Shown here piece after piece: positions 7,779-54,450 of a DNA stretch of 64,000 nucleotides. The DNA is taken from positions 58,855 to 122,854 of IMG/VR virus record IMGVR_UViG_3300027747_004524; one strand, 5' to 3'. The notes beneath the pieces are model-generated. The model was not told the DNA's origin. It saw only the letters and a program-made list of their open reading frames with translations, and searched no databases. The DNA is from a virus. The position numbers were made by a program, and so were the translations under genes. Position 1 is the first letter of the stretch. Each line of letters starts with the position of its first letter.

Positions 7779-8459
7779 ATGGGTATGTTTGATCGAATAG
7801 AAGTCCACAAGGAAATTGCTCTTCCTTATCCTAACGATTTTGGAAATTTCGATTTTTCTGAACTTGAATTCCAAACAAAATGTTTAGAAAACTGCCTTTC
7901 TGATTACATTCTTAAAAAAGATGGATTGTACTTGCTAGAAGACGGCAAACTAGTCAATAAGCAGTTTCATGGAGTCCTAGACTTTGGTGCGTATTACACA
8001 ACTGACTTAATTGATTACTTGATCGATTTTAGAGCAAAATACACAGACGGTACCTTAGTAGAAGTTAAATTACATAGATTCCAAAAGTTTTTTCATGAAA
8101 GCACAAAAGAAAAATTTAAGATTTTGAAGGATAGGGAAGAGAAAAGAAGAAAAAATATTTTTTTAAGACTGCAATCATTCTTTGTCCGCTTTATTGGGTT
8201 GAAGTCTAAATGGCTTGGTGTCTTCGAAAAAGATAACACTATAATTTCTTTGTACTCGCCCAAATTGATACTTCTTAGAAAAAGAGATTTTAGAGGTTGC
8301 TATTCTTATGGACTAATGCTAGAAAACTTTGACTTTGGTTTTAAGTTCAGCTTTAGTCATCACGATAATGTTTTTTGCATTAAGTTTTTTGGATTTGGCT
8401 TTGAACTAAGAAAGTTTTTAAGTCCACTTTTCGAAGATTTTATAAATGAAAAGACTTAA
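7779..8459 (+). CDS. MGMFD-type conserved phage protein
   Basis: The N-terminus MGMFDRIEVHKEIALPYPND followed by LEFQTKCLENCLSDYILKKDG matches a small family widespread in phages and prophages (start M-G-M-F-D, then F-Q-T-K-x-L, then a short strand-turn-strand). The family has no known function. Here the protein is longer (226 residues), with a Lys-rich middle (about 108-128) and a Phe-rich C-terminal half. The next gene starts inside its last codons. Confidence 0.7.
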   Translation: MGMFDRIEVHKEIALPYPNDFGNFDFSELEFQTKCLENCLSDYILKKDGLYLLEDGKLVNKQFHGVLDFGAYYTTDLIDYLIDFRAKYTDGTLVEVKLHRFQKFFHESTKEKFKILKDREEKRRKNIFLRLQSFFVRFIGLKSKWLGVFEKDNTIISLYSPKLILLRKRDFRGCYSYGLMLENFDFGFKFSFSHHDNVFCIKFFGFGFELRKFLSPLFEDFINEKT

Positions 8460-8709
8460 AGAGGGAGATAAGGTAAGGGTTTCTGGCGGACCTTACTATC
8501 TCACTAAAGAAGGAAAGAAAATTAAATTGGGCGAGAGGGGAGTCGGTACGTTCATGGGGATGCACCCAGACGGAAACGGAGCTCTCATAGCTTTTAACGG
8601 CGACAAGTCTTCTAGCTACGTTTACGTAGGTCCAACCCATGTGTCCCCCATAACAGGAACAACTATGACCTCCCACAAAATATCTAAAAAGAGATATCGT
8701 AGGTCTTAA
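8446..8709 (+). CDS. Small basic SH3-barrel-like protein
   Basis: An 87-residue basic protein with short beta-like stretches: DKVRVSGGPYY, GERGVGTFMG, GALIAFNGDKSSSYVYV. This pattern resembles KOW/SH3-like nucleic-acid-binding barrels; the assignment is by pattern only. It overlaps the end of the upstream gene by 14 bp and is convergent with the large repeat gene. Confidence 0.55.
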   Translation: MKRLKEGDKVRVSGGPYYLTKEGKKIKLGERGVGTFMGMHPDGNGALIAFNGDKSSSYVYVGPTHVSPITGTTMTSHKISKKRYRRS

Positions 8710-24925: not shown

Positions 24926-25135
24926 TTATACATTCTTTGTTACTTCTTTGCTATCAGATCTAATATCCGATCTACTTGATAGCTCACTTCTTAGTACTGT
25001 GATTTCTTTGTCTGCTTCTATTCCAACTCTTACTTTATTCTTATTGTCTATTCTAACAATAGTTATCTTGATATCGTCCATATTTGGACCTCTTAAGATA
25101 ATTGTCTCGTCTTTCTTTCTGCTCAGAACTAACAT
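24926..25135 (-). CDS. csrA: Second carbon storage regulator CsrA
   Basis: A 69-residue CsrA homologue: MLVLSRKKDETIILRG at the N-terminus, ITIVRIDNKNKVRVGIEAD in the middle, then EITVLRSEL. The protein diverges from the first CsrA in the middle loop (an extra GPNMDD stretch) and carries a longer Ser/Arg-rich tail. The ATG at 25135 is preceded by AAAGGAG. It is on the strand opposite to the first csrA and may have different RNA targets. Confidence 0.9.
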   Translation of the reverse strand: MLVLSRKKDETIILRGPNMDDIKITIVRIDNKNKVRVGIEADKEITVLRSELSSRSDIRSDSKEVTKNV

Positions 25136-25279
25136 CCTATTTCTCCTTTTCTTTTTCAAGCAGCTAATCTAAATTTTGCTTTAGCACATAAACCCTTTGT
25201 TTGTTTGTGCTTAGTCCTAAATCAATATAGTGGCAGGCTTTTATTTTTCACCTGTTCGCAAAAAAAAATAAACCTTGGT

Positions 25280-27620: not shown

Positions 27621-28187
27621 ATGGAATACGATAAGTTAAAGGGTTATCTTGATAAGAACATGACTCTAAGGCAAATTTCAATCGAAAGCAAAAAATGTCT
27701 TGCTTCTGTTCGTTATTGGATGAAAAAACATGGGTTTAAACCTAATTTTGCGAACTTTAAGGGAGGCTATAAACCTGGTCAAAAAATAATTGGCAATGAC
27801 AGATATTGTCCTTCTTGCAAAGTTTATAGAAACATAAACGATTTTTACTCAAGAAGGAAAACTAACTGCACGGGCTACTGTAAGACTTGTATATCTAAAA
27901 AGACTACTGAACGACAAAGAAAAATTAAGAAGGAGATGGTCGAATACAAAGGGGGCAAATGTCAAAACCCGAAGTGCTCCACGCCAGGAGGATATAGTCG
28001 TTCAATAAATGGTTTGGACTTTCATCATATAGATCCTTTGAAAAAAGAATTTAGTATTTCTCAAATAAGGCTTACTAAGATGAACAAAAAAATTAAAAAA
28101 GAGTTGGATAAATGTATTTTGCTTTGTGCCAACTGCCATAGAGAAAGACATGAAGAGCTGCTTCTTGAAAGAAAAAAAAGCACCTGA
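27621..28187 (+). CDS. HNH endonuclease with zinc fingers, tRNA-flanked
   Basis: A 188-residue protein. The N-terminus is a helix-turn-helix-like segment (MTLRQISIESKKCLASVRYW, about 14-33), then a zinc pair CPSCKVYRN (about 62-70) with CKTC, and the HNH core NGLDFHHIDPLKKEF (about 130-144) with ILLCANCHRERHEE (about 167-180). TACTAT and TATAAA lie just before the ATG without a ribosome site. It sits between tRNA relics and the intron-bearing tRNA and is convergent with that tRNA, as expected for a mobile nuclease. Confidence 0.85.
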   Translation: MEYDKLKGYLDKNMTLRQISIESKKCLASVRYWMKKHGFKPNFANFKGGYKPGQKIIGNDRYCPSCKVYRNINDFYSRRKTNCTGYCKTCISKKTTERQRKIKKEMVEYKGGKCQNPKCSTPGGYSRSINGLDFHHIDPLKKEFSISQIRLTKMNKKIKKELDKCILLCANCHRERHEELLLERKKST

Positions 28188-28193
28188 AAACAG

Positions 28194-28478
28194 TCCGAGA
28201 GGTGGGGCACGATCCCACAACCCACAGATTATGCAATCCACTTCGGCTTTCGCCGCCAGAACTTCTTCTGTTCGTGGTCTGGACTATGCCTTCACCTTTG
28301 TTGTTGCCAACTTTAGGTGGGTGATTATAGTCTCTACACGTTCCCTTTCGGGCTTCGCTCGGCGTTGGGTCGTCCTTTTGAGACAGGCCGTTCACCGAAT
28401 TTACACCTGACTAACCACCCGTTTCCAGATGGCCGACCCGTAAAAGTCTGTTGCTCTAACCAATTGAGCTACTCTCGG
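28194..28478 (-). tRNA. tRNA(CAT), probably Ile2, split by a group I intron
   Basis: On the minus strand the 5' exon (28478-28445) and 3' exon (28233-28194) join to a 74-nt cloverleaf: acceptor CCGAGAG / CTCTCGG, discriminator A, D arm GCTC-AATTGGTTA-GAGC, anticodon stem ACAGA / TCTGT with loop CTCATAA (anticodon CAT after splicing), T arm GTGGG-ATCGTGC-CCCAC. The T loop is atypical (ATCGTGC instead of TTCRANY). No CCA is encoded. The D stem 11:24 pair is C:G, against an initiator. With tilS 7 bp upstream, Ile2 (lysidine-modified) is the best reading; elongator Met is the alternative. Confidence 0.8.
28234..28444 (-). ncRNA. Group I intron (211 nt) in the anticodon loop
   Basis: Inserted after U33. 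The 5' exon end GACT pairs with GGTC in the intron (P1) with the expected U-G at the splice site, and the intron ends in G. Core elements: AAATTCGGTGAAC (P-like), ACCCAACGCCGAGC (Q-like), GTAGAGACTATA (R) and GAAGGCATAGTCC (S), the last two pairing as P7. Size and setting match small IC3-type tRNA introns. No ORF inside. Confidence 0.8.
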
Positions 28479-28485
28479 AATGTTT

Positions 28486-29145
28486 TCAGACGCTCTTTTG
28501 TGTGATCACCTCTTCAACCAATGACTCAATTTTTTTCTTTGCAAACTTTTCCAAAGACAGTTCGTTTTTTGCCATCTCTGGAATTATTCTTTGACGAACC
28601 CAATTTCTTCTGCTGCCCTTGACTGCAGAGTTGGTTTCGTCCTCTACAATATAATGCTTTAATTTGTTTCTGTCAACGTACTGTTGAAAATCTTTTTTCT
28701 TCGTTAGAAGAAATGGGTGCACAACCTTATAGTTTGGAAATAGACTCCACAAGGGAATTGGTTCGTGATCTGGTTTCCCCCTGAAACAGTTCAGAAGGTA
28801 GCTTTCAATCCAATCGTTTAAGTGGTGGGCCGTTATTAGAATTCCTTCTTCCTCTTTGAAAATAGTAGAATAGAATTCAACTCTAGCTCTTCTGCATTCT
28901 GATTCTGTGTTTAGATTATTGCCATATCCACAAATTCCTTTTATGTGAAATTCTTCGCAAAACTTTTGGAAATTTTTTTCCATTTCATCGTTTTGTTCTC
29001 TGATTTTGTGGTTAAAGTGTACTCCAACAACCTTGTATCCTTTCCACATTAACCAATGCAAAGATGCTAAACTGTCTACTCCCATAGAAACTGTAACGTA
29101 AACAGTTTTTTCTTTGTTGAGTAATTGCTTTATGATCTTTATCAT
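28486..29145 (-). CDS. tilS: tRNA(Ile)-lysidine synthase
   Basis: A 219-residue TilS N-terminal catalytic domain. The PP-loop reads VTVSMGVDSLASLHWL (17-32; SMGVDS replaces SGGxDS). Then HFNHKIREQNDEME (about 44-57), ESECRRARVEFYSTIF (about 82-97), ITAHHLNDWIESYLLNCFRG (about 104-123), VHPFLLTKKKDFQQYV (about 141-156) and ETNSAVKGSRRNWVRQRIIP (about 168-187). TilS converts C34 of tRNA-Ile2(CAU) to lysidine so that it reads AUA. The gene ends 8 bp before the tRNA(CAT), in the same direction. The C-terminal domain of larger TilS enzymes is absent, as in short forms. Confidence 0.92.
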   Translation of the reverse strand: MIKIIKQLLNKEKTVYVTVSMGVDSLASLHWLMWKGYKVVGVHFNHKIREQNDEMEKNFQKFCEEFHIKGICGYGNNLNTESECRRARVEFYSTIFKEEEGILITAHHLNDWIESYLLNCFRGKPDHEPIPLWSLFPNYKVVHPFLLTKKKDFQQYVDRNKLKHYIVEDETNSAVKGSRRNWVRQRIIPEMAKNELSLEKFAKKKIESLVEEVITQKSV

Positions 29146-29282: not shown

Positions 29283-30554
29283 ATGGCTAAGAAAACTATG
29301 AGTTGCGACTTTTGCGGCAAACCAAACAAGGCGGTAGGAACTTTAATCGAATCACCTTCTTTTGACAAGGAGGTAAACGGAAGACCAAAGGGAACTAATT
29401 TTTTCATCTGCTATGGTTGCGTTGAATTAGCTCATAAGATGGCAAGACAAGACAACAAGAAACAAAACAACCAGCAGAAGCAAACAGAGACTTCGGCCTA
29501 TCCTGTTTCTCCTAATCCCAAAAAAGTTGTTGAGTTTCTTGATCAATATATTATTGGACAAGATTTGGCAAAGAAAACTCTTGCCGTTTCTGTTTGTAAT
29601 CATTATAAGCGTCTTATTTCTCAAGAAGACGATGATGTTAACATTGAAAAGTCTAACGTGCTTCTAATTGGCCCAACCGGATCGGGTAAAACTCTTTTTG
29701 CAAAAACCTTAGCAAAATATTTGAACGTTCCTTTTGCGATTGGAGACGCTACAACCCTAACAGAAGCGGGCTATGTGGGGGAAGACGTAGAGAACCTTGT
29801 TCTAAAGCTTCTTCATGCTTCTGACTTTGATGTTGAGGCCGCACAGAGAGGCATCATTTACATAGACGAAATAGACAAGATAGGCAGAACAAACAATAAC
29901 GTCTCCATCACTAGAGACGTTTCTGGCGAAGGTGTTCAACAGTCTTTGTTGAAGTTGGTAGAAGGAACTGTTTGCAATGTCCCTCCAGCAGGAGGCAGAA
30001 AGCATCCCGAACAACAGTTTATTCATGTTGATACCACCAACATTCTGTTTATCTGTGGTGGTACATTTACTGGTTTAAATGACATAATCAAGAAGAGAAT
30101 TGGTAAAACCGCTATTGGGTTTAACAACTCCTCTTCGGATAATATCGAAGACAAAGATCTCTCATTTCAGGTTGTTGAAGAAGACTTGGTTGAGTTTGGC
30201 CTGATTCCAGAGTTGATTGGTAGGCTTCCTTGCATCACTCCCTTGAAGCAGTTTGACATTGAATCTCTTGTTAGCGTTTTGTGTGATCCGAAGGACTCTC
30301 TAATCATGCAATACAAGAAGCTGTTTAGGTTTGATAACGTGGAATTAGACTTCACAAGGGAAGCTTTAGAGGCTATTGCCAAAAATGCCCTTGATAAGGG
30401 CACTGGAGCTCGCGGCCTTAGAAGTTCTATGGAGAAAATACTCCTTGAACTGATGTACGAAGCCTCCGATCATAGGGGAGAATCGATTGTGATAACCGAT
30501 GGCGTCGTTTTAGGTAAGGAAAAGCCTTGTTTTGCCAAAAATAAGGCTGCATAA
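29283..30554 (+). CDS. clpX: Clp protease ATPase subunit ClpX
   Basis: A full-length 423-residue ClpX. The N-terminal zinc-binding domain has CDFC (8-11) and CYGC (43-46), which recruits substrates. The AAA+ core has Walker A GPTGSGKT (130-137), pore-1 loop GYVG (163-166), Walker B YIDEIDK (193-199), the RKH loop (239-241), sensor region GRLP and sensor 2 GTGARGLR. The ClpP-docking IGF loop is intact (278-280), so it should work with host ClpP. Phage ClpX could redirect proteolysis or unfold host proteins. Confidence 0.95.
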
Positions 30555-31999: not shown

Positions 32000-32860
32000 A
32001 TGAAAACTCTAAAAGACAGACATAGCAAAGCTAAAAACTATTGTGAGCGTGTTTTTGCTCACGACAACTTTAAAAGCACAAAAGAAGTCAAAAAGTTTAT
32101 ATCTAGAGTTTTTGACTTTTCTTCTCCAAACCTTCTTTCGCAAGAAGATGAGATTATTCTTTTTAAGAAGATGAATTATTTTAAGTTTAAGGCAAAGCGT
32201 TTGCTTGAGGTGGAAGATATTTCTGAGAAGAGACTTTTAAAGGCTGAGTCGTTCATAAAAGAAGCAAAAAATATTAGGAACTTTATTGCTGAGTGCAACT
32301 TTCGTCTTGCTAACCAAGTTTTGAAATGCAATATTTCGTACTATAAAAAGAACAGTTTGGTAGATTCCCTTTTGTCCGATGCCTACTTCGACATCATAAA
32401 GTCTGTTGACTACTTCAATTGGACCCTGGGCAATAGGTTCAGCACTTACGCCACATGGGTTGTTAAGAAAAACTTTTTCAGGGAATCGAAAGAAAACCAA
32501 AAGAGATCCAAAAAAGTTGTTCATCTGGAAGACTTTGATTCTTCTCTTATGAAGGAGGGTGAAAGCTCATTAAAGATAGAGCTTGATCATAAAAGCCATA
32601 AACAGGTGGTTTCAATTCTTCTTTCAATGTTGGAAACAGGAGACTGTGCTAAAGATCAAAAAAGGCAGGTTTTTATACTAGAGCATTATTTTGGCCTTAA
32701 TGGACAAGACGATTGTACACTTGAGGAAATAAGCCACAAACTTGGAATTACTAAGGAGCGAGTAAGACAGTTAAAGGAGAAAGGGCTCGATTGGCTTAGG
32801 GGCCAAATAGCACATATGAATTTAAATTACGATTCTATTTTCGAGTCTGTGAGGTATTGA
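32000..32860 (+). CDS. RpoD-type sigma-70 factor
   Basis: The most complete sigma of the window (286 residues): region 1.2-like LLSQEDEIILFKKMNY (about 45-60), region 2 (ANQVLKCNISYYKKNSLVDS, about 106-125, then DIIKSVDYFNWTLGNRFSTY and ATWVVKKNFFRE), and region 4 (YFGLNGQDDCTLEEISHKLG, about 234-253, then ITKERVRQLKEKGLDWLR). The region-4 recognition helix TKERVRQLKEKGL matches the -35-reading helix of housekeeping sigma factors. A dedicated phage sigma is likely. Confidence 0.88.
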   Translation: MKTLKDRHSKAKNYCERVFAHDNFKSTKEVKKFISRVFDFSSPNLLSQEDEIILFKKMNYFKFKAKRLLEVEDISEKRLLKAESFIKEAKNIRNFIAECNFRLANQVLKCNISYYKKNSLVDSLLSDAYFDIIKSVDYFNWTLGNRFSTYATWVVKKNFFRESKENQKRSKKVVHLEDFDSSLMKEGESSLKIELDHKSHKQVVSILLSMLETGDCAKDQKRQVFILEHYFGLNGQDDCTLEEISHKLGITKERVRQLKEKGLDWLRGQIAHMNLNYDSIFESVRY

Positions 32861-53190: not shown

Positions 53191-54450
53191 TTGCAAAATT
53201 TTAAATTATTTTTTGAGAGCTTATCTGAGGCTGCTGATTTAAAAAGCCAAATACTTGAGAGTTCCTTTTTAAAAGAAATACGGTATATGGGCGGAAGGCT
53301 CTACTTCGTTGGGGGGGCTACAAGAGACCATTATCTTGGCACCCCCTCAAAAGATATTGACGTAATTATATCAAACATTCCCGCAGACCAACTTACAAAC
53401 ATACTGAAAAAGCATGGAACAGTGAGTAGTGTTGGAGAATCTTTTGGAGTTATAAAGTTTATTCCTAATGAGTTTAAAGTTAGTGAGCCTATAGACATAG
53501 CTTTACCAAGAAAAGAACGTCCTATGACGGCTGAGGAGAGAGAAAACTATAAGCAAAAATATGGAAAATACCCCTCTGCCTACCAGGCTTTTACCGTAGA
53601 ACCAGACCACTTTTTAAAGATAGAAGACGATCTACTTAGAAGAGACTTTACGATAAACGCTATCGCCCACGATCATCTTGGGAATAGTGTGGATCCTCAT
53701 GGAGGAGTGAGAGACATTAAAAACAAAGTAATTAGAATGGTCTCTGCGAAAAACTTCTCAGAAGATCCTCTTAGGATGCTAAGAGGCGTACAGTTTGCTT
53801 CACGCTTTGGATTCAAGATTGAGTCTAAAACATTCGATGCTATCAAAAAAAATGCTTCTCTCATAAATGGCATACCAGGCGAACGCATACTCGTTGAACT
53901 AGAAAAGATAGTTAAAAAAGGAAATCAACTTTTGGGTGCAAAATTGCTTTGTGAAACAAGCTTATGGCAGGAGATATCAAGCTTATCTTGTAAAGACCAT
54001 AGCAAGGATGCCGCTTTATTTGAAGAAAGCGAAAAGTCTAAAACCGTAGCAGAGTTTTTGTTTTTAATGATGTTCAATGTCGCATCCTCTCAAGAAGCTT
54101 CTTCTTTGATTAAGAGATTAAAATGCGAAATCATCACCGAGAAGCAGATAAAAGGATTGTATTACGCATGGGAGAGTGATGACAATCCTCATTTAGTTGT
54201 TTTTAATCTTAACAGAATTCACCCAACATGTTTGCGGTTACTTGTTCTACCCCAGCATGTTAAGAATTCTATTTCTTCTGATATGCCTAAAAGTGTTAAA
54301 GACCTACAAATAAACGGCAGCGATTTAATGAGCTTGGGCTATAAAGGAGAAGACATATCAAGTGCTTTTAGTAATATTTTAAGGCAAATATTTAATGGAT
54401 CTATAGGTAACTCAAAAGAAGAAATAATTGACTTTCTTCAAAGCAATTAA
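53191..54450 (+). CDS. cca: CCA tRNA nucleotidyltransferase with targeting-like N-terminus
   Basis: A 419-residue class II CCA-adding / poly(A)-polymerase-type enzyme (TTG start, ribosome site AGGAG). Motifs: GGATRDHYLG (41-50), the metal pair DID (55-57), DLLRRDFTINAIAHD (147-161), DPHGGVRDIKNKVIRMV (about 168-184) and EDPLRMLRGVQFASRFG (about 191-207). The first 13 residues (QNFKLFFESLSEA) resemble the T4 capsid-targeting peptide. It would add or repair CCA on phage tRNAs, which lack an encoded CCA, and might be packaged. Confidence 0.9.
   Translation: MQNFKLFFESLSEAADLKSQILESSFLKEIRYMGGRLYFVGGATRDHYLGTPSKDIDVIISNIPADQLTNILKKHGTVSSVGESFGVIKFIPNEFKVSEPIDIALPRKERPMTAEERENYKQKYGKYPSAYQAFTVEPDHFLKIEDDLLRRDFTINAIAHDHLGNSVDPHGGVRDIKNKVIRMVSAKNFSEDPLRMLRGVQFASRFGFKIESKTFDAIKKNASLINGIPGERILVELEKIVKKGNQLLGAKLLCETSLWQEISSLSCKDHSKDAALFEESEKSKTVAEFLFLMMFNVASSQEASSLIKRLKCEIITEKQIKGLYYAWESDDNPHLVVFNLNRIHPTCLRLLVLPQHVKNSISSDMPKSVKDLQINGSDLMSLGYKGEDISSAFSNILRQIFNGSIGNSKEEIIDFLQSN

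Follow-up and report, generated by a model that had tools for sequence, protein, structure and literature searches.

A lysidine synthetase gene (tilS) and a tRNA(CAU) gene interrupted by a group I intron were found side by side in a phage genome, and this locus probably represents a cassette for the decoding of AUA codons, composed of a TilS enzyme reduced to its catalytic domain and of tRNA-Ile2(CAU), in which the intron is a mobile passenger. TilS re-programs its target tRNA to read the AUA codon by means of lysidine at C34. The stretch of DNA analyzed, hereafter the window, comprises 64 kb of a virus record of 122,854 bases; comparable loci on other viral contigs are designated by the letter L and a number.

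Organization of the tilS-tRNA(CAU) locus

Since the window also encodes a tail-fibre gene, a phage helicase and a nucleotidyltransferase of the CCA-adding type, its phage origin is sound. The coordinates of the features discussed in this study are compiled in Table 1. The tRNA gene lies 7 nt downstream of the end of tilS, in the same direction on the minus strand, and no terminator-like site was found. All features on which the original prediction was built, namely the removal of 211 nt, the resulting 74-nt cloverleaf with the loop CTCATAA and the insertion of the intron after U33, were recovered in place, as were the final G of the intron and a P1 helix with U-G at the splice site, formed by GACU and GGUC. 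Likewise, the gene described as a recognisable tilS just upstream proved to be correctly named. Three other tRNA genes (Asn, Pro and Thr) are present in the whole record, whereas a search of the same record for further group I introns yielded no other match.

Table 1. Features of the tilS-tRNA(CAU) locus and associated genes (positions refer to the window).
Feature	Position	Strand	Evidence or remark
tilS, single-domain tRNA(Ile)-lysidine synthetase, 219 aa	28486..29145	-	Profile, structure and motif matches
tRNA(CAU) gene, whole, intron-split	28194-28478	-	285 nt unspliced
tRNA(CAU) 5' exon, 34 nt, last base U33	28445..28478	-	ARAGORN; junction kept in other CAU-intron loci
Group I intron, 211 nt, ORF-less, terminal G at 28234	28234..28444	-	Independent covariance model, covariation, RF00028 (26.2 bits)
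tRNA(CAU) 3' exon, 40 nt, from C34; A73, without encoded CCA	28194..28233	-	ARAGORN, sequence
P1, exon side GACU, U33 at splice site	28445..28448	-	U-G pair kept in 15/16 introns
P1, intron guide sequence GGUC	28435..28438	-	Covariation alignment
P7, 5' strand GACUAU	28327..28332	-	Helix 10, 91.7% of cells paired
P7, 3' strand AUAGUC	28282..28287	-	Covariation alignment
HNH endonuclease gene, convergent, end 6 nt from tRNA 3' end	27621..28187	+	phrog_2255 (2.5e-27)
tRNA nucleotidyltransferase, CCA-adding type	53191..54450	+	phrog_2244 (E 4.3e-54)

The phage TilS consists of the catalytic domain

The tilS product passed the cut-off of TIGR02432, the equivalog model of the TilS N-terminal part (101.1 bits against 93.6), and matched PF01171 (E 6.7e-27) as well as the Aquifex aeolicus TilS (PDB 1wy5, 6e-15). 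Its AlphaFold2 model (pLDDT 93.6) was found by Foldseek to be most similar to TilS 2e21 (E 1e-10), and ranks 1 to 6 were all occupied by TilS/MesJ entries. With SMGVDS as the PP-loop, HHLND, D-ETN and RRN, the set of TilS motifs (NH, HHxxD, D-xN, RN-R) is complete. Comparison of 18 phage TilS proteins furthermore revealed S20, G22, D24, S25, N45, H46, R88, H107, D111, E114, D169, N172, R180, N181 and R184 to be invariant.

Phage TilS proteins are all short, with a median of 198 aa across 160 loci, compared to a median of 432 aa for 79 bacterial TilS. Because the C-terminal tRNA-binding domains CTD1 and CTD2 are absent from the window protein, as they are from its phage relatives, it corresponds to the TilS catalytic domain and not to a type I or type II TilS. 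By family and modelled fold, the protein is thus a TilS comprising the catalytic domain only, for which formation of lysidine is predicted. It shares the N-terminal PP-loop domain, the fold and the motifs with the bacterial enzymes of E. coli (MesJ/TilS, 1ni5), G. kaustophilus (3a2k) and A. aeolicus (1wy5/2e21); however, in bacterial TilS of types I and II, one or two additional domains at the C-terminus touch the tRNA and assist in discriminating tRNA-Ile2 from tRNA-Met (PMC12514573), and the bacterial genes are not located beside tRNAs.

Pairing of tilS with tRNA(CAU) across phages and bacteria

Scanning viral contigs with a single TilS protein returned nothing, whereas alignment-based scans detected 374 and 538 TilS relatives, 80 of each being kept, which formed 25 phage clusters at 70% identity. 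Several matches from isolates labelled as phages (Listeria, Staphylococcus, Enterococcus, Salmonella and others, the majority lacking annotation) were left out, as they probably represent bacterial DNA. Within these clusters, each of the ten tRNAs located at most 150 nt from tilS carried a CAU anticodon and resided on the same strand (9/9 without the window), compared to 9 out of 69 (13%) of the tRNAs located farther away in the same loci (Fisher p 6.4e-8, a value overstating independence because the clusters of the window clade share ancestry). Two of the loci with the pair, L074 and L227, had entered the collection via intron patterns and all others via TilS alone. No tRNA of any kind was found within 150 nt of tilS in 80 bacterial loci.

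The tRNA follows tilS in the window clade, L150, L157, L151 and L074, but precedes it in L146, L210 and L227, suggesting that the pair was assembled more than once. Adjacency is common but not required, since the DNA examined was free of tRNAs in one cluster of 102 loci, which accounts for most phage TilS by count, and the nearest CAU tRNA in the PA5oct group, comprising isolates with tilS, is 7 kb away. The original prediction had regarded the arrangement as confined to a single locus; it turned out to be widespread, recurring in many phage lineages once tilS beside tRNA-CAT was searched for. Judged from these gene neighbourhoods, the tilS-tRNA(CAU) pair has the appearance of a genuine functional unit and the intron that of a passenger.

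Identity of the tRNA and demand for AUA decoding

The spliced tRNA of 74 nt was accepted by ARAGORN as a CAU tRNA. When run in intron mode on the unspliced gene, the program also found a tRNA with a 211-nt intron, with the splice site slid by 3 nt and Lys(TTT) called. This call was rejected, since the intron must end in G and homologous junctions fix CAU: the junction '..CT / CATAA' was found in 42 other loci (45 rows, two of them being re-fetched copies of the window locus). The CAU reading therefore rests on the terminal G of the intron, the P1 helix and the homologous junctions.

Which of the CAU tRNAs is encoded was evaluated from the cloverleaf. It is of the non-initiator type, with C1:G72 paired, the anticodon stem ACAGA/TCTGT and A73; initiator tRNA-Met was rejected on account of the C1:G72 pair and of an anticodon stem without three G:C pairs. 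The main competing explanation is that an elongator tRNA-Met is encoded, tilS acting on other tRNAs, such as the Ile2 tRNA of the host, as part of a general tRNA-processing cluster. In its favour, C4:G69 and C5:G68, the identity pairs needed by E. coli TilS, are missing in the window tRNA, which has A4:U69 and G5:C68 instead. Both pairs do occur in some other tilS-linked phage tRNAs, and the unusual T-loop of the window tRNA (ATCGTGC) is a further point against Ile2. However, the two pairs apply to E. coli, and other TilS orthologues are known to differ in this respect (PMC12514573), so that Ile2 is retained as a candidate identity. The label Met assigned by ARAGORN points in the same direction as the missing pairs, but it is given to every CAU tRNA, and when the spliced tRNA was compared with E. 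coli by BLAST, only weak, partial matches resulted (tRNA-Ile, E 7), which settle nothing between Ile and Met. A general tRNA-processing cluster is disfavoured because other anticodons would then be expected to adjoin tilS, while the tight linkage described above is specific for CAU.

Codon usage also speaks against an elongator tRNA-Met. No Ile codon is used more often in the window than AUA, which accounts for 26.3 of every 1000 codons and for 44% of those specifying Ile, compared to the 36% expected from third-position composition; in E. coli, AUA amounts to 4.9 per 1000 (PMC12514573). Taken together, the elongator explanation is considered unlikely, and the linkage and the codon demand suggest that the tRNA is likely Ile2 rather than Met. 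The original proposal of an enzyme encoded with its own substrate to serve AUA codons is thus supported by the recurrence of the pair in phages, but not bacteria, and by AUA usage, its Ile2 component being likely only. A lysidine-bearing phage tRNA(CAU) has been found earlier in a T4-like Vibrio phage (reviewed in PMC13191261).

Among the tilS-adjacent CAU tRNAs, those at L146:5897-5988 and L074:5769-5850 are 92 and 82 nt long and possess long variable arms like class II tRNAs, which is unusual for a CAU tRNA.

Evidence for a group I intron

The Rfam model RF00028, to which the original prediction had pointed, matched positions 28257-28438 with 26.2 bits (E 8.6e-5 on 401 nt), whereas its gathering score is 50, and the window intron is accordingly missed at the gathering threshold. 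An independent covariance model was built from phage introns gathered by core patterns, of which 14 from CAU tRNAs were aligned, the window intron and its nearest relative being excluded. This model matched positions 28229-28460 with 149.2 bits (E 2.4e-38), which was its sole match in the 64 kb. The low RF00028 score is consequently a property of the Rfam model and not of the RNA, and the predicted intron class held despite the sub-threshold Rfam match.

A hand-written group I structure including the P3-P7 pseudoknot was paired in 90.4% of cells across 16 introns, a percentage somewhat favoured by the structure having been drawn on the window sequence; independent of that choice, 35 of the 55 pairs change on both sides, and the full P1-P9 core covaries. 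Pairing dropped to 31-43% of cells in control structures slid by 1-3 columns, and the observed values were not reached in any of 500 shuffles. On this comparative evidence, the intron is a group I intron of IC3-like type and is predicted to be self-splicing.

The intron as a probable mobile passenger

The original prediction assigned a regulatory role to the intron, as a gate on tRNA maturation; in this reading, its rate of splicing would set when the TilS substrate appears and thereby time AUA decoding. Such a gate would fit the separation of U33 from C34 by the intron, which places modification after splicing, the close and co-directional arrangement of tilS and the tRNA, and the fact that, in the window, L138, L136, L141, L093 and L227, no more than 1 kb separates tilS from an intron-bearing CAU tRNA. 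The order of splicing before lysidine formation is, however, a structural necessity and as such no sign of regulation. Moreover, the pair is intact without an intron in the close relatives L135, L140, L142 and L144, and also in L146, L150, L157 and L210, while most intron-bearing CAU tRNAs have no tilS in their vicinity, and introns of this type occur most often in phage tRNA-Leu(UAA).

A second insertion site was also observed. L136 and L141 carry an Azoarcus-like intron at 36/37, after the anticodon, compared to 33/34 in the window, at a distance between tRNA and tilS of 20 nt in L136 and about 700 nt in L141. These introns presumably are closer to the Azoarcus intron, which is likewise inserted at 36/37, than the window intron is. 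The tRNA genes concerned (L136:6650-6935 and L141:7340-7604) indicate that introns invaded this tRNA on two independent occasions in related phages. As a further sign of mobility, the introns of the window and L138 are 95.6% identical, compared to 58% identity of the TilS proteins.

Furthermore, an HNH gene of the homing type adjoins the intron-bearing tRNA. The window HNH protein is related (tblastn, E 8.6e-7 to 1.1e-8) to antisense ORFs inside the CAU-tRNA introns of L225, L227 and L231, and its relatives are encoded convergently, 28 nt from the intron-bearing tRNA, in L222, L224, L242 and L247. L138 likewise features an HNH gene convergent to the intron-bearing tRNA (7930-8568, -), for which no relation to the window HNH was detectable. 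The location of HNH relatives inside or beside sister introns is the pattern expected of a mobile intron with a neighbouring endonuclease, and the window HNH protein is the probable homing endonuclease partner of the intron. Intronless pairs, the second insertion site, intron-bearing CAU tRNAs without tilS and the adjoining HNH gene argue jointly against intron-gated tRNA maturation, which is regarded as very unlikely.

That the locus is decaying, with a tRNA or a TilS no longer functional, is the least credible explanation and highly improbable: the T-loop ATCGTGC differs from the TTCGANT consensus in positions 54 and 58, that of L138 being normal, and the first G of the PP-loop SGGxDS is replaced by M, but pairing is kept everywhere else in the cloverleaf, the changes in the anticodon stem relative to L138 are compensated, SMG is common to the clade and kept in all eight aligned relatives of 50-59% identity, and the tilS frame is open and confidently modelled.

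Proposed function of the cassette

For the AUA-decoding cassette favoured here, the following course of events is proposed. Both genes, tilS and tRNA-Ile2(CAU), would be transcribed together, and the precursor tRNA would first excise its own group I intron. On structural grounds, TilS should be unable to act before splicing, because the 7-nt anticodon loop is missing and C34 does not lie beside U33. The ends would then be trimmed and CCA added, possibly by the phage's own nucleotidyltransferase, which could complete the tRNA since CCA is not encoded. Subsequently, the phage TilS would turn C34 into lysidine, and the tRNA, charged with Ile, would read AUA, the commonest Ile codon of the phage. 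The intron would stand outside this device, as a mobile IC3-like element which invaded the conserved anticodon loop, which probably owes its spread to the HNH endonuclease encoded convergently beside it and which persists because it is self-excising.

A wider reading, on which we are evenly divided, is that many large phages possess a 'private' AUA unit in which a TilS devoid of C-terminal domains has co-evolved with the neighbouring tRNA(CAU), providing host-independent lysidine under non-cellular recognition rules, and that the tRNA gene was repeatedly invaded by introns at two positions.

Relation to known systems

TilS has been known from phages since the description of MIJ3, there without a tRNA partner. 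Similar to the window, the Wroclawvirus Pseudomonas jumbo phages MIJ3 and PA5oct combine a catalytic-only TilS of approximately 200 aa (28% identical) with CAU tRNAs in a large phage genome; in contrast, their nearest CAU tRNA is 7 kb off and has no intron. The authors explained TilS by maintenance of host viability and not by a tilS-tRNA pair (PMC6892783). Compared to host maintenance, the pair provides a functional reason for a phage tRNA-modification gene.

The intron also has precedents. A group I intron is known from the tRNA-Ile(CAU) of Azoarcus (PMC3984707), and the IC3 intron of the Azoarcus BH72 pre-tRNA-Ile(CAU), about 205 nt long, resembles that of the window in its size of approximately 200 nt, the CAU anticodon loop and a similar core, and is self-splicing; it is chromosomal, whereas the window intron is inserted at 33/34, phage-borne and located beside tilS. 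Cyanobacterial tRNA-Leu(UAA) and tRNA-fMet genes harbour group I introns in the anticodon loop as well, though in a different tRNA. Regarding the endonuclease, the F-CphI/psbA intron of cyanophage S-PM2 represents a comparable case, a group I intron whose endonuclease is encoded separately, next to the interrupted gene (collaborative homing, PMC6083498), but there that gene is psbA and the enzyme features an Endo VII motif, while the window combines a tRNA gene with an HNH protein, a putative endonuclease.

According to a review from 2014, all group I introns observed in phages until then resided in protein genes and none in tRNA genes (PMC3984707), contrary to which such introns are placed here in many phage tRNA genes. 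Azoarcus-type group I introns were detected on viral contigs in at least 119 stretches (L012-L130), mostly in tRNA-Leu(UAA), with some in CAU and other tRNAs. No description of a tilS-tRNA(CAU) pair in phages or of phage tRNA introns on such a scale was found in the literature searched, which covered few subscription journals and no preprints. To this extent the novelty originally claimed for the locus stands with respect to the phage pair, but not with respect to a self-splicing interrupted tRNA-Ile(CAU), given the Azoarcus example.

Cellular TilS needs its C-terminal domains for the choice between Ile2 and Met, whereas the phage enzyme is half the size, has none of them and often has its likely substrate next door. 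The phage pair may thus serve as a natural minimal system for studying how a CAU tRNA commits to Ile or Met. Phage TilS and its tRNA are also candidates for a pair without cross-reactivity towards host enzymes.

Other genes of the phage

A tmRNA was detected in the same phage record outside the window (G000:C1:30267-30618 (+), RF00023, 131 bits), the tag of which, read by eye, would end in ...SYAMAA. The window encodes a ClpX homologue (29283-30554 (+)), so that the phage possesses its own tmRNA and ClpX. Near the cassette, a CsrA homologue (24926-25159 (-)) and a sigma-70-like protein (32000-32860 (+)) are also encoded.
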